64,000 nucleotides of DNA from Streptomyces spinosus. GTDB taxonomy: Bacteria > Actinomycetota > Actinomycetes > Streptomycetales > Streptomycetaceae. Under the pieces are notes generated by a model. The model was not told the DNA's origin and searched no databases. It worked only from the letters and a program-made list of their open reading frames with translations. Positions 56,492 to 61,984 of the stretch are shown here, piece after piece; position 1 is the stretch's first letter; every line of letters starts with the position of its first letter. The stretch spans positions 1 through 64,000 of the forward strand of contig NZ_JAINRC010000019.1 in assembly GCF_020400655.1 (NCBI RefSeq), written 5' to 3'. A program made the position numbers and the translations under genes.

Positions 56492-56929
56492 TCACACTCG
56501 GCGCGGCAAGGGCGGGCGCAGCGACCTGCGGCAGCGCGTTCGCCATGTTGAGGCGAGGGTGCGTGGCTCCGCAGTGTCGCCGAAACTGCGGTACTCGTCC
56601 TCGTTCGGATCGCCCAGGCCGGCAGCGAAGATCACCCTGCCGCCGCTGAGGTGGTCCAGGGTGGCCACCTGGCGGGCGAGTTGCTGCGGACGGTAACGGG
56701 GGACCGGCGTCAGCAGGGTGCCCAGTCGGATCCGGGAGGTCGCCAGCGCGGCCGCTGTCAGTAGGATCCAGGGGTCTCCGAAGGGACGCCCTTGATGTTG
56801 TCGGTGCAGTACGTGGTCCCGGACGAAGAGCCCGTCCCAGCCGGCCTGTTCGGCGGCGGCCGCCACGGTTGCGACGTTACGGGGGTCGGCGAAGTCACCG
56901 AAGTCGGGAACGTTGACGGAGAAGCGCAT
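56492..56929 (-). pseudogene. LLM-class flavin-dependent oxidoreductase, N-terminal fragment
   Basis: From ATG 56929 the protein reads MRFSVNVPDFGDFADPRNVA, AAAEQAGWDGLFVRDHVLHR, ASRIRLGTLLTPVPRYRP and DHLSGGRVIFAAGLGDPNED, which is the luciferase-like F420/FMN monooxygenase fold. After SFGDTAEPRTLA the frame loses homology (ERLDEGLE expected) at about 56548 and ends after about 20 unrelated residues. Only about 125 of about 290 residues remain, so it is a truncated gene. Confidence 0.78.
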
Positions 56930-57037
56930 CTCAGCAGGATGCGCAGCTGGCCGCGAAGGGGCGATCACATTCCCCATCGGGCCGGCCGCCTACCAGCAGC
57001 AGGCCGACATCCACCGCGCGCCGCCCACGCCCGGCGT

Positions 57038-57206: not shown

Positions 57207-57791
57207 CTACTTGGCGACCTGGGCTTCGGCTTGGTGCTTGAGGTTGTTGACCCAGTTGTGGAGTGAGTTGTCGAGGGCGGCCTGCAGCGCGGCCTGGTCG
57301 GCGACGACAGGCGCTCCGGTCCACGACTCCTCGGTGTGGACGAGGATGCCGTCGCGGGTCGGGGTGAACGTCCACACGTGGATGGCGGTGATGCCCTGGG
57401 CGGGGCCGCCCCAGGCCAGGCGCCTGCCGTAGTCGGCTTGCCTGACGGTGGAGGTGATGCTCAGCCCCTCGGTGGCCCACCGGAAGACGGAGCCGGGGCG
57501 CAGGCGCCCGGGGGTGTCCTTGACGGCCGTCGCGACGTCGGGCTGCCAGGTGGGCCACTTCTCCACGTCGGTCTGGATCTTCCAGACGGTGTGGAGAGGG
57601 GCGTGGATGAGGACGTTCTCGCGGGTGATGACGGGCGCGCTCTCGTCGATCTGGACGTCGCCGGTGTGCGCGGCGAGTACGGCACGGGCGCCGAGGGGCT
57701 GGTCGTCGGTGAGGGCGTAGGCGGTGCCGGAGGCGGCGAGGAGGAACGCGGTGGTGGTGGCGGCGAACTTCGCCACGGTCGGCGTACGCAT
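57207..57791 (-). CDS. Exported SRPBCC (START-like) protein
   Basis: This 194-residue protein has a signal peptide (AKFAATTTAFLLAASGTAYA, cleavage near residue 25) and an SRPBCC domain: VLIHAPLHTVWKIQTDVEKW, then the cavity strand WATEGLSITSTVRQADYGRR and VWTFTPTRDGILVHTEESWT. The SRPBCC fold makes a deep hydrophobic pocket for lipids or isoprenoids. A clear paralogue (59305-59745) without signal peptide lies on the other side of the carotenoid oxygenase gene. It may bind the apocarotenoid outside the membrane; this is inference. Last gene of the cluster. Confidence 0.85.
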   Translation of the reverse strand: MRTPTVAKFAATTTAFLLAASGTAYALTDDQPLGARAVLAAHTGDVQIDESAPVITRENVLIHAPLHTVWKIQTDVEKWPTWQPDVATAVKDTPGRLRPGSVFRWATEGLSITSTVRQADYGRRLAWGGPAQGITAIHVWTFTPTRDGILVHTEESWTGAPVVADQAALQAALDNSLHNWVNNLKHQAEAQVAK

Positions 57792-57889
57792 GATGTCTGG
57801 GCCTTTCGAAGTCGGTATTTCAGGGGGCAAGTGGGTTCGGTGCGCACCGGGTCCGGGGAGCGGGGTCCCCCCGGACCCGGGCGACTGGT

Positions 57890-59263
57890 TCAGCTGTCCG
57901 AGGCGTCCGCGTCACCGCTGCTGTCGGGGATCCAGGAGCCGTGGATGCCGCCGGTGACCCGGCGCGGGAGGTGGACGGTGGCGATCCGGTCGAGGCCGGA
58001 GGCGTCCAGGACCAGGAGCTGGGAGGCGTCCTGCTTGAGGTCGGAGATGACGGTGAGCAGGTAGCCGTCGTCCTCGCGGGTGGCGCCGGCGGCGGGGACG
58101 AAGACGGCCTCGCTGGGCAGGCGGGCGTCGCCGGCCTGGTGGATACGGCGGGCGCCGGTCGTGCGGTCGTACTTGACGATGCCGTAGCCGCCGTAGCCCT
58201 CCTGGTCGGGGAAGGAGACGGCGTACTGGTAGCGGTTCTCGGAGCCCAGGAAGTCCTCGTTGAGCGTGGGGAATTCGACGGCGAGGTCGTCGATGACCTG
58301 CTCGTCGACGCTGCCGACGGTCAGGTCGATCACCCAACGGCGATTGTAGGACCGGGTGTTGGGCTCGGTGCCGCGGCCGGGGGCGCCGACCCACCAGTTC
58401 CAGGAGAGCTGGAATCCCTCCTTGTCCACGGTCGGGCCCTCCAGCACGATGCGCCCCTGGGCGTCCTCGTAGGCGTTGCCGGCGTGCAGCATGTTGCCCG
58501 GCTCGATGGCGAACCAGCGGATCTGTCCGGGGCCCTGCGGGCCGCGGGGCATCACGCCGATCCGCGCCGGCTGCGCGTCGTTCCAGCCGTAGGGGATGCC
58601 GGAGTGCTCCTGCGGGTCGAAGGTGACCGTGCCCTCGACGAAGACCACGTAGTGGCGGGTGAGGGCGAAGTCGTGCTTGAGGGAGGCGGTGGCCCCGGGC
58701 ACCTCGAAGCTGTGGGTGACCTGGCCCTTGGCGTCGGCCACGTAGTACATGAGGTACGGCGGGAACGGCGACGAGCCGAAGAAGTGCAGTTCCCCGGTGA
58801 CCGGGTCGGTCTTGGGGTGCGCGGTCATCGCGCTGCGCAGCTTGCCGTCGAAGTCGTAGGGGCCGACGGTCTCCAGGTCCCGGGTGAGCTCGAAGGGGAA
58901 GTTGGCCTCGCACAGGGCGAGCAGGCGTCCGGCGTGCTCGATGACATGGGTGCCGGCGGTGCTGGCGGTCAGGTCAGGGCCGTGCTCGGTCATGTAAGGG
59001 GCGCCGTCCAGGGCGGGGGTGCGCACCCAGCGGTTGCGGTACCACTCGGCGCGGCCGTCGCGCAGCCGGATGCCGTGGACCATGCCGCTGCCCTTGAACC
59101 AGTGGGTGGGGGTGACACCGGGCTTGGGGTTGTGGCTGTTGCGGATCAGCCGGCCGGTCAGCTCCGGGGGCAGGGTGCCCTCGACGGTCAGCCCGGTGGC
59201 GGTGATCTCGTCGACGGCCGGGGTGTAGTGGCCGATCAGGTAGGGCTTGTCGGTGCTGGTCAT
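57890..59263 (-). CDS. Carotenoid oxygenase (retinal-pigment-epithelial-protein family)
   Basis: This 457-residue enzyme uses Fe(II) bound by four histidines: His149 (TAHPKTD), His197 (LKHDFA), His260 (NMLHAGN) and His441 (GIHGSW). The N-terminal LPPELTGRLIRNSHNPKPG and HWFKGSGMVHGIRL are typical. It cleaves a polyene double bond with O2, giving apocarotenals, or a stilbene in related enzymes. No signal peptide. ATG 59263 fits the conserved start. It lies between two SRPBCC genes, in a unit that includes an MFS gene and a TetR regulator. No carotenoid synthesis genes are next to it. Confidence 0.92.
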   Translation of the reverse strand: MTSTDKPYLIGHYTPAVDEITATGLTVEGTLPPELTGRLIRNSHNPKPGVTPTHWFKGSGMVHGIRLRDGRAEWYRNRWVRTPALDGAPYMTEHGPDLTASTAGTHVIEHAGRLLALCEANFPFELTRDLETVGPYDFDGKLRSAMTAHPKTDPVTGELHFFGSSPFPPYLMYYVADAKGQVTHSFEVPGATASLKHDFALTRHYVVFVEGTVTFDPQEHSGIPYGWNDAQPARIGVMPRGPQGPGQIRWFAIEPGNMLHAGNAYEDAQGRIVLEGPTVDKEGFQLSWNWWVGAPGRGTEPNTRSYNRRWVIDLTVGSVDEQVIDDLAVEFPTLNEDFLGSENRYQYAVSFPDQEGYGGYGIVKYDRTTGARRIHQAGDARLPSEAVFVPAAGATREDDGYLLTVISDLKQDASQLLVLDASGLDRIATVHLPRRVTGGIHGSWIPDSSGDADASDS

Positions 59264-59304
59264 GGCAGAACCTCGTTTCCGTGAAGGGTGCGTGGGGAGG
59301 GCAG

Positions 59305-59745
59305 TCAGGCGGTCTGCTCGGCGCGGGACTTCAGGGCGGCGAGCCAGGTGGTCAGGGAGGCGTACAGAGCTTGACCGAGTTCGGCGGCCGCGGCCTCGAC
59401 GGGGGCGCCGGCCCAGGACTCCTCGGTGCGGACGGTGACCTGGTCGCCGGTCTGCTCGAAGGTCCACACGTGGACGCCCTCGATGCCGTTCGCAGGCCCA
59501 CCCCAGACCAGGCGCTCACCGGGGACGATCTCGCGGATGGTGGAGGTGATGTCCAGCCCGTGGGTCTTCCAGTGGAAGGAGGTGCCGGGCAGCAGCGGAC
59601 CGTCGAGCCTGGCCTGGTCGACGTCCGCGTTCCAGCCGGCCCAGGCGTCGATGTCGGTGTGCAGGGACCAGACCCGCTCCAGCGGGGCGTCGATCACGGT
59701 GGACAGACGGACGATGACGGGGGCGGTCTCGTCGATGGTGAACAC
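59305..59745 (-). CDS. Cytoplasmic SRPBCC protein
   Basis: This 146-residue SRPBCC protein (VIDAPLERVWSLHTDIDAWA, HGLDITSTIREIVPGERLVW, VWTFEQTGDQVTVRTEESWA) is a paralogue of the exported one at 57207, with the same WGGP and TEESW landmarks, but no signal peptide. It precedes the carotenoid oxygenase by 41 bases on the same strand. It probably carries or modifies a hydrophobic ligand inside the cell. The ATG is preceded by GAGGAAACCC. Confidence 0.87.
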   Translation of the reverse strand: MFTIDETAPVIVRLSTVIDAPLERVWSLHTDIDAWAGWNADVDQARLDGPLLPGTSFHWKTHGLDITSTIREIVPGERLVWGGPANGIEGVHVWTFEQTGDQVTVRTEESWAGAPVEAAAAELGQALYASLTTWLAALKSRAEQTA

Positions 59746-59820
59746 GGCTGGGTTTCCTCTCGGTTGATGTGCTGACTGACGTGCTGGTTGATGTGCTGTC
59801 GGGTGTTTTTCGGCCGGCGG

Positions 59821-61306
59821 TCAGTGGTGATCGCGGGCCGCGGGCTGCGGGACCGGTTGCGGGCTCGCGCCGGCGGAGCCGGCCGCGCTGCGGCGGGTGA
59901 GGAGCAGGGCGAGGGCAGCGGCGGCCCCGAGGACGGCAGCGGAGATGCCGAAGGCGGTGCGGTAGCCGGCCGTGAGCGCCTCCAGGTGCGAGTGGTGGGT
60001 GGCCGCGTGGGCGGTGGTGGTGCCGGCGAGGGTGGCCAGCACCGCCAGTCCGATCGCGCCGCCGACCTGCCGCGTGGTGTTGACCAGGCCGCCGGCCAGC
60101 CCGGCGTCCTGCGGGGGGACGCCCTCGACGGAGAGGCCGGTCAGCTGGACGAAGGCGACGCTCAGGCCCAGGCCGATCAGGATGCTGGGGCCGAGGACGT
60201 CGGCGAGGTAGCTGCCGTGGGCGCTGATGCCGGCCAGCCACAGCAGTCCGGCGGCCTCGGTCAGCAGCGCGCCGGCGACGGCCGCGGCGGGGCCGGTACG
60301 ACGGGCGATCCGCGGTGCCAGCGTGGAGCCGAGCATGTTGGCGAAGGCCAGCGGGAGTTGGCCCAGGCCGGTGACCAGCGGGCTCAGGCCGAGGACCTGT
60401 TGCTGGTAGAGGGGCAGGAAGAAGAACAGGGCGATCCACACCGAGCCCAGCAGCGCCATCAGCACATTGCCGGCGGTGACCCGTCCGGTGCGGAACAGGC
60501 GGGGCGGCAGCAGCGGGTTCGGGTGGCGGTGTTCGACCAGGACGAACATGGTCAGCAGTACGGCGGTGACGGCCAAGGCTCCGAGGACCCTGGTGTCCGT
60601 CCAGCCCGAGCTGCGAGCCGACGTCAGAGCCCACACGAGGGCGGTGAGCGCCAGAGTCACGGTGGCGGTACCGAGCGCGTCGAACCGTCCTGGCTCGGCG
60701 GTCCGCGCCGTCGGCACGGTCGCGGCAGCAGCGGCAAGGACCGCGAACGCGCCGGTCGCGACCACGTAGAAGATCCAAGGACCAGCCCCAGGCCTGGGTC
60801 AGGACGCCACCGAGGAGGACCCCGGCCGCGCCTCCGGCGCCGGACACCGCTCCCCACACCCCCAGGGCGCGGCCCCGGCCGGGGCCGGGCGGGAACAGGC
60901 CCATCACCAGGGCCAGCGCGGCGGGGGCGATCGCCGCAGCGCCCAGCCCTTGTACCGCCCGGGCCGCGATCAGCGCCGCGGACGAGGTGGCCAGGCCCGC
61001 GACCAGCGAGGAGACCCCGAACACCGCGAGTCCCGCCAGCAACGTACGGCGGCGGCCCAGCAGGTCCGCGGCCCGGCCGCCCGCCAGAAGCAGTGCCCCG
61101 AAGGCGAGGCCGTAGGCGTTGACCACCCATGTGGTGCCGCCGTCCGAGAGGCCCACTCCGGCGCGGATCTGGGGGAGGGCCACGTTCACGATCGAGGTGG
61201 CCAGCATGACGGTGAACTGCGCCCCGGCCAGGGCCGCCAGCGCCGCTCCGGGACTGCGGTCGGCGTCGGTATCGGTGTCGGCGATGGGCTTCACGGTATC
61301 CCCCAT
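59821..61306 (-). pseudogene. MFS drug transporter (DHA2-like) with a single-base frameshift
   Basis: From ATG 61306 the first frame gives FTVMLATSIVNVALPQIRAG, motif A GGRAADLLGRRRTLLAG, and motif C GVLLGGVLTQAWGW. The second frame continues FYVVATGAFAVLAAAAATV through the last seven helices to ASPQPVPQPAARDHH. One extra base near 60776 (TCCTTGG, expected TCCTGG) separates them. Otherwise the 14-TM gene is complete. It heads the SRPBCC/carotenoid-oxygenase cluster and is preceded by a GTGGTTAACCAC palindrome. It is a recent mutation or a sequencing error. Confidence 0.82.
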
Positions 61307-61308
61307 GT

Positions 61309-61328
61309 GTGGTTAACCACTCACTTTG
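61309..61328. promoter_or_regulatory. Operator-like palindrome upstream of the MFS gene
   Basis: GTGGTTAACCAC (61309-61320) is a perfect 12-bp palindrome extended by TCAC. The segment AACCACTCAC recurs at 61971-61980 just before the tetR start, which suggests the same regulator binds both. Confidence 0.65.
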
Positions 61329-61393
61329 CGAGTCAAAGGATGGCGGGGCTGTGCGCCCCGCCTGCGTGTCCAGTCGCGCGGTCGCGACGGGCG

Positions 61394-61960
61394 TCAGTAG
61401 TGCCTGATGCCCGCCGCCAGCGTCCGGGTCCAGGGGGCGTCCACCTCGTCGGCCCCCATCGAGACGATGAGGTGGCACAGCATGCCGAGCGCGAAGAACT
61501 CCTGGACCTGCTCCTCCGTACCGCCGGAGGCACCGCGCACGTACTCCACCAGCCGGGCATAGCCCTGGCGGACCGCCTCGCGCACGGCCGGCTCGGACAC
61601 CGCCGCCGCCTGGGCGTGGAGCTGGATCAGCATCAGGTCGTTGTCGCTGATCAGCCGGGCATAGGCGTCCCCCATGGCGCTCAGGACGACCTCTGGTGAG
61701 CTGCCCTTCGCCTCGGCCGCGGCACGTTCCAGGGCGGCCCGCACCTGCACGAAGCAGTGCTCGACCACCCCGGTGAACAGCAGTTCCTTGTTCGGGAAGA
61801 GGCGGTAGACGTACGCCTGCGAGATGCCGGCCGCCTTGGCCACCTCGGTCGTGGTGGTGCCCCAGTAGCCCCGGGCGGCGAAGGCGCCGATCGCGGTGCG
61901 GAGCACCGTCTCACGACGCTCCTCGGCCGTGGATAGCTGACGGGGACGTTCGTTCTTCAT
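61394..61960 (-). CDS. TetR-family regulator of the MFS/carotenoid-oxygenase cluster
   Basis: This 188-residue repressor has ETVLRTAIGAFAARGYWGTT and VAKAAGISQAYVYRLFPNKE as its DNA-binding domain, followed by a TetR_C-type ligand domain (LCHLIVSMGADEVDAPW). ATG 61960 is chosen; a TTG at 61972 would lie in the operator-like AACCACTCAC site. There is no strong ribosome-binding site. The stop is 87 bases ahead of the MFS start on the same strand. It probably represses itself and the cluster; the inducer may be the exported or cleaved compound. Confidence 0.88.
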   Translation of the reverse strand: MKNERPRQLSTAEERRETVLRTAIGAFAARGYWGTTTTEVAKAAGISQAYVYRLFPNKELLFTGVVEHCFVQVRAALERAAAEAKGSSPEVVLSAMGDAYARLISDNDLMLIQLHAQAAAVSEPAVREAVRQGYARLVEYVRGASGGTEEQVQEFFALGMLCHLIVSMGADEVDAPWTRTLAAGIRHY

Positions 61961-61970
61961 GTGAGTACTC

Positions 61971-61984
61971 AACCACTCACACTC
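61971..61984. promoter_or_regulatory. Operator-like site before the tetR gene
   Basis: AACCACTCACACTC shares 10 bases with the site at the MFS start; with flanking GTGAGTACT it makes an imperfect inverted repeat, GTGAGT-N6-CCACTCAC. Confidence 0.5.

Follow-up and report, generated by a model that had tools for sequence, protein, structure and literature searches.

A TetR-operator-marked module of efflux pump, START-like proteins and carotenoid-type oxygenase in Streptomyces spinosus and other actinobacteria

Identification of the locus

What compound is handled by a carotenoid-type oxygenase that lies between two related SRPBCC proteins, one cytoplasmic and one exported? This question is raised by a group of five genes in a 64,000-nucleotide stretch of Streptomyces spinosus DNA (positions 1 to 64,000 of NZ_JAINRC010000019.1, assembly GCF_020400655.1; hereafter, the window), which is on contig C10 of a draft assembly of 9.17 Mb in 94 contigs. 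Read along the minus strand, the genes encode a TetR-family repressor (TetR), a DHA2-type MFS exporter (MFS), a cytoplasmic SRPBCC protein (SRPBCC-c), the oxygenase (CCO) and an exported SRPBCC paralogue (SRPBCC-s) (Table 1). We find that pump, START-like protein and oxygenase, with an exported START-like protein as an optional component, form a conserved module marked by TetR operators in several actinobacterial families. The reading that we tentatively favour, with a probability of roughly 0.45, is a horizontally moving, ligand-induced cassette that binds, cleaves and exports a hydrophobic unsaturated compound, probably one from outside the cell.

The group had first been noticed from the letters of the window. 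This original prediction described a five-gene group with a four-histidine oxygenase, a TetR regulator and an SRPBCC protein bearing a signal peptide, and profile matches confirm that all are present on the minus strand. CCO is taken to start at an ATG (59263), as opposed to the GTG at 59467 given by the mechanical open reading frame (ORF) call. The intergenic gaps are short (approximately 75 bp between MFS and SRPBCC-c, 41 bp between SRPBCC-c and CCO and 98 bp between CCO and SRPBCC-s), making the segment from MFS to SRPBCC-s compatible with a single transcript. The arrangement had been said not to be known as a described pathway, and a search of the open literature bears this out: no description of it was found among the papers listed, and in the open library searched no paper mentions carotenoid oxygenase and SRPBCC together. 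One paper, PMC11727611, concerns polyketide polyenes and a different oxygenase.

Table 1. Positions of the cassette genes and predicted operators in the window
Feature	Position	Strand	Basis
TetR-family repressor	61394..61960	-	TetR_N 2.5e-11; orthologue at least 60% identical in 30/80 CCO loci
TetR operator 1 (predicted), TGAGTGGTTGAGTACTCACATG	61958..61979	-	includes TetR start codon at its end
TetR operator 2 (predicted), GTGAGTGGTTAACCAC palindrome, 5' of MFS start	61309..61324	-	upstream-sequence comparison
MFS exporter, DHA2/EmrB-like, frame broken	59821..61306	-	MFS_1 on two ORFs
SRPBCC-c, cytoplasmic START-like (helix-grip) protein	59305..59745	-	Polyketide_cyc2 1.2e-12
CCO, carotenoid-type oxygenase (CCO/RPE65 family)	57890..59263	-	RPE65 1.7e-108; four-His iron site
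SRPBCC-s, exported paralogue with signal peptide	57207..57791	-	Polyketide_cyc2 8.1e-13

Conservation and spread

The gene neighbourhood was surveyed at 80 named actinobacterial loci, the best 80 of 167 confirmed, in which CCO is 72–94% identical; the sample is biased to close relatives, and full flanks are missing at eight loci. MFS is adjacent to CCO at 69 of the 80, and an SRPBCC gene is present at 53 (directly upstream of CCO at 50, within 1.5 kb downstream at 16). The co-conservation of SRPBCC genes with the oxygenase, on which the original prediction had staked itself beforehand, is therefore observed. Its picture of an SRPBCC pair flanking the oxygenase stands in part: both types recur near CCO, but the exported one lies within 1.5 kb downstream at 14/80 loci (plus a rearranged fifteenth, L189), and 27/80 have no SRPBCC gene at all. 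The downstream SRPBCC is of the cytoplasmic type at L190 and L191. The exported protein is an optional add-on, and the window's whole five-gene order is found at nine loci, including L161 with a more distant MFS. At five loci (L120, L134, L138, L140 and L145), a third SRPBCC protein, 49–53% identical and lacking a signal peptide, stands in the place of TetR.

Of 199 genus genomes, 65 are matched by SRPBCC-c and 99 by CCO, in the latter case mostly through distant paralogues. Seventeen of the 24 SRPBCC matches that are at least 55% identical lie within 5 kb of CCO (positions compiled by hand, with one 71-residue fragment in G101 excluded).

In a CCO tree computed without the mistranslated outgroup row L062 and with a long outgroup row (L063), Streptosporangiaceae and Thermomonosporaceae rows nest inside the Streptomycetaceae rows, together with one Streptomyces. 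As judged from these sequences, the nesting fits horizontal transfer of the cassette, and an 83% identical CCO is encoded on a Kitasatospora plasmid record. The regulator type switches 3 times on this tree and SRPBCC presence changes 12 times, which suggests repeated gain or loss of SRPBCC genes.

Operators and regulator types

Two conserved sites accompany TetR at each of the 30 loci that have it (scans of named loci tolerated one mismatch). The 22-bp site TGAGTGGTTDANTACTCACATG, with the TetR start codon at its end, is present at 30/30 TetR loci and at 0/28 loci with an AAA-type regulator. The related palindrome GTGAGTGGTYRACCAC is found up to 4 kb before CCO, as a rule 5' of MFS, again at 30/30; elsewhere, a site of this second type occurs at 0/28 AAA loci, 0/5 loci with the third SRPBCC and 1/17 unclassified loci (L141). 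Operators 1 and 2 have GTGAGTGGTT in common. Across 392 genus genomes there are 34 copies of the 22-bp site, in 33 genomes, and none of a reversed control pattern; the operators are also kept in Planobispora, Microbispora, Actinomadura and Actinocorallia. These conserved sequences are predicted to be bound by TetR. Because operator 1 abuts the TetR ATG, the TetR mRNA is probably leaderless.

With predicted operators at both its own promoter and that of MFS, TetR shows the pattern of a TetR-regulated efflux operon, and its constant association with these sites supports the earlier claim that it belongs to the unit. The layout resembles TetR-MFS drug efflux pairs of the DHA2/EmrB type in having TetR and an operator before the MFS gene, but goes beyond them with an oxygenase for cleavage and between one and three START-like proteins. 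Since gene order and operators are conserved over 80 loci and three actinobacterial families, the neighbourhood is not a product of chance; that unrelated neighbours simply came together, as the absence of the exported SRPBCC and of TetR from many loci might suggest, is highly improbable.

At additional loci with the 22-bp site, TetR is followed by an MFS-CCO module, a quinone-oxidoreductase-like gene or, at L211, a relative of SRPBCC-s; at L198 and L207 it is followed by no gene of those searched for. The quinone-oxidoreductase-like (PIG3-like) gene represents a second type of partner, with TetR and operator before it and no CCO nearby (L200, L203, L204 and L208).

The AAA-type loci have a promoter signature of their own: at 21/23 of those with MFS, at least two GGACAG repeats are present in the MFS promoter, and such repeats are also present at 10/17 unclassified loci. 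The AAA class (28 loci) was set by a rough ORF caller, and the assignment of L189 is doubtful. Upstream, these loci encode, among others, a P450 and a SnoaL-like protein. At L147 (2747-4012) and L166 (3208-5730), the AAA-type cassette has GGACAG repeats before MFS, a SnoaL-like protein and a P450 above a cut-off for cyclodipeptide-synthase-associated enzymes. A cyclodipeptide link was considered and set aside: the P450 passes TIGR04538 (541 versus 500 bits), yet inspection of the listed ORFs at 13 AAA loci, by eye and with no profile search, revealed no cyclodipeptide synthase.

The efflux pump

The MFS exporter named in the original prediction is present and is intact in relatives, but a frameshift in the window copy had been overlooked. 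MFS_1 (PF07690) is spread over two ORFs (59516-61306 and 59821-60765), both of which pass the cut-off. A single extra base near 60777-60780 disrupts the frame relative to seven orthologues, all of which are in frame there, and 4/4 orthologues checked are open over approximately 490 codons. The break may be a true lesion or an error of the draft assembly. The DHA2/EmrB model TIGR00711 is not passed, the intact MFS orthologue of L118 scoring 220.2 bits against a cut-off of 230.2.

The oxygenase and its substrate class

Enzymes of the CCO/RPE65 family hold their iron with four histidine ligands. In CCO these are H149, H197, H260 and H441, unchanged across 27 aligned sequences, and the protein scores 364.2 bits against PF03055 (cut-off 27). 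Three NCBIfam models match, each below its own cut-off: NF052295 (8'-apo-carotenoid 13,14-cleaving dioxygenase) is the best, at 341.3 bits (cut-off 675), followed by the lignostilbene models NF053778 (177.1; cut-off 800) and NF053780 (151.4; cut-off 650). Among enzymes of solved structure, CCO is nearest in sequence to a carotenoid 9,10-dioxygenase and VP14, and then to the stilbene-cleaving CAO1.

A lysine in the active site is a marker of stilbene-cleaving enzymes. Cys118 of CCO aligns with this lysine in 6n1y (CAO1) and 5v2d (a Pseudomonas lignostilbene dioxygenase). Of 81 family sequences, 75 have Cys at this position, 6 have Ser and none has Lys; the aligned carotenoid dioxygenases have Ser. 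The CCO structural model (mean predicted local distance difference test score [pLDDT] 68.8) was rejected as a clue to substrate: it is too weak for pocket work, and its fold matches, among them NOV1 and LSD4 (Z 23–25), come close to the values of the carotenoid enzymes and fail to separate the two groups.

These data bear on a nov1-like alternative, in which the repressor would sense a plant phenolic and CCO would cut its C=C bond to aldehydes. According to PMC10046596, nov1 of Novosphingobium aromaticivorans is controlled by the repressor Saro_0803, which is released by a small unsaturated ligand. It resembles our locus in that its oxygenase shares the superfamily of CCO and in its control by a ligand-released repressor, as is proposed here; the differences are that Saro_0803 is MarR-like rather than TetR and that the nov1 substrate is a stilbene (PMC10046596). 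Stilbene or phenylpropanoid cleavage would agree with this precedent and with the NOV1 and LSD4 matches of the low-confidence model, but the absence of the lysine from 81/81 family members and the low scores against the lignostilbene models make it rather unlikely.

A second alternative is an endogenous apocarotenoid pathway, in which CCO would cut a carotenoid that the cell itself makes (by the route to isorenieratene or beta-carotene), and the resulting apocarotenoid would be passed to the outside by the carriers and pump to serve as a signal or pigment. The S. spinosus genome does encode the phytoene desaturase CrtI (583 bits, contig C77), and at the lysine position CCO is closer to the carotenoid than to the stilbene enzymes. 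Against this, 10 of the 23 genomes with a CCO at least 70% identical have no CrtI above the cut-off; its frequency in these genomes (13/23) is similar to that in others (87/176; Fisher p = 0.66), where CrtI was scored on approximately seven candidates per genome and the genome lists were compiled by hand. This lack of association implies that an own carotenoid is not required as substrate, and the capture and export of an apocarotenoid suggested by the original prediction stay conjectural.

One genome, G076, offers a possible link to carotenoid synthesis (L084, 6326-14418). A TetR relative is divergent from an exported-type SRPBCC gene, after which come genes resembling lycopene cyclase and amine oxidoreductase, together with CrtI; the lycopene-cyclase-like gene is 0.4 kb from TetR and the SRPBCC gene, and at 61.1 bits it is well below its curated cut-off of 209.5. 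No match to these crt-type genes was found at any other locus screened, and no second case of SRPBCC near crtY was found in 61 genomes around G076. This case therefore counts as a lone lead and not as a decisive carotenoid link. We regard the endogenous pathway as unlikely.

The oxygenase gene is also subject to decay. CCO is broken or partial at L067, L075, L086, L087, L116 and L117, in several instances beside intact SRPBCC genes; broken or remnant copies adjoin SRPBCC at L067, L075 and L087.

The SRPBCC proteins

SRPBCC-c and SRPBCC-s are 53% identical over 142 residues and are each other's sole close relative in the genome, the next match being 27% identical (4.6e-4). Both exceed the PF10604 (Polyketide_cyc2) cut-off of 27.4 bits, with scores of 48.8 and 49.3. 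By inspection, the SRPBCC-s N-terminus MRTPTVAKFAATTTAFLLAASGTAYALTDD is a signal peptide with an AYA-L cleavage site, and a signal-peptide-like N-terminus was recognized by eye in orthologues from 15/15 loci. The earlier description of two related SRPBCC proteins, one of them exported, is upheld.

The AlphaFold2 model of SRPBCC-c (pLDDT 96.1) is predicted to have the helix-grip fold, with Z scores of 16.7–18.4 to helix-grip proteins among the 50 matches listed; such matches speak for fold and not for function. Across 52 sequences of the cytoplasmic, exported and third paralogues, 28 columns are invariant, 7 of them Trp. Several invariant residues alternate along the modelled strands (F57/W59/T61, H92/W94 and V105/T107), which suggests positions facing a cavity. 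With these shared, Trp-rich residues, SRPBCC-c inside the membrane and SRPBCC-s outside it would bind the same type of ligand.

Similar folds are found in proteins of quite different roles. The Streptomyces aromatase-cyclases TcmN, ZhuI and WhiE-ORFVI have the SRPBCC fold (Z 17.1–17.6), and sequence matches to aromatase-cyclases are weak (E 0.1–0.2 with a single sequence; 0.003 for TcmN with a profile). This raises the alternative of a tailoring module for specialised metabolites, with the SRPBCC proteins as cyclases, a resistance pump and CCO, P450, SnoaL-like protein and quinone oxidoreductase as swappable tailoring enzymes. The upstream genes of the AAA-type loci, the quinone oxidoreductase following the same TetR at four loci and the equal nearness of the SRPBCC-c fold to TcmN and ZhuI are all consistent with it. 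However, neither a polyketide synthase nor another type of scaffold enzyme was seen to recur among the clustered neighbours of the 80 loci (as called by the rough ORF caller), and one cassette paralogue is exported, which would be unusual for a cyclase. We consider a tailoring module quite improbable.

Plant PYR/PYL receptors have the same helix-grip fold as SRPBCC-c (Z 16.7–18.2), and their ligand, abscisic acid (ABA), is an apocarotenoid. Their identity is, however, 8–16%, and the fold match, common to TcmN and many others, is no evidence of function. The START-domain fold is related to SRPBCC, and human StARD3 and silkworm CBP, START-type proteins, reportedly bind or carry carotenoid. They differ in being animal proteins with no operon shared with an oxygenase, and their likeness to SRPBCC-c is one of fold relation.

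Proposed role

The ligand-induced cassette that we favour starts from the observed conservation, operators and export signal, and from these we infer a ligand, a chemistry and a direction of transport. TetR would repress from its two related operators, one at its own start and the other ahead of the MFS gene. Entry or formation of a hydrophobic conjugated compound would release TetR, and one transcript would then supply the efflux pump, the cytoplasmic START-like carrier and the non-haem iron oxygenase with its four His ligands, joined in some strains by the exported carrier. CCO, given its family and intact iron site, would split the compound at a C=C bond, giving carbonyl products. SRPBCC-c would ferry water-insoluble substrate or product through the cytosol, MFS would pump out product or substrate and SRPBCC-s would bind the same type of ligand outside the membrane. 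The likeliest role would be detoxification or catabolism of an environmental or competitor polyene or apocarotenoid, rather than turnover of a C40 carotenoid made by the cell.

Several points weigh against this proposal. The frame of the window MFS is disrupted, SRPBCC genes are wholly absent from more than a quarter of the loci, and MFS-SRPBCC pairs occur without CCO at L078 and L080. CCO scores below the cut-off of the only apocarotenoid-cleaving model matched, so any substrate class predicted for it is tentative; SRPBCC is also a cyclase fold, so the carrier role is putative; and the G076 arrangement would favour an endogenous carotenoid in that genome.

A bolder version, which we hold to be doubtful, is a two-sided lipid relay. 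The cytosolic and exported START-type paralogues would load and unload CCO and the exporter with the same polyene or apocarotenoid, and would be the bacterial equivalent of the START-type carriers of carotenoids in animals, or of the fold that serves as ABA receptor in plants. TetR would be a receptor for the same molecule, and plant or fungal apocarotenoid signals might be involved.

If the cassette works as proposed, actinobacteria would have a transferable unit whose TetR receptor with recognisable operators, pair of soluble carriers, oxygenase and pump all have one ligand in common, and straightforward binding and induction assays could identify that ligand. START-like carriers would be tied to carotenoid-type oxygenases in bacteria, and a ready ligand-inducible switch would be at hand. 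Were the ligand a plant or fungal apocarotenoid, soil bacteria would have a route to intercept such signals.

Other genes

At five loci (L089, L090, L091, L092 and L093), an SRPBCC gene occurs with a quinone-oxidoreductase-like gene and an unnamed membrane protein of approximately 210–220 residues, two copies of which gave no NCBIfam match. The S. spinosus genome has a second RPE65-family gene, 41% identical to CCO, at a separate site (G000 C26:9280-10611). In the window, positions 56492-56977 encode a short luciferase-like (LLM) protein of 161 amino acids whose profile match is confined to the initial part of the profile, and which is probably truncated.

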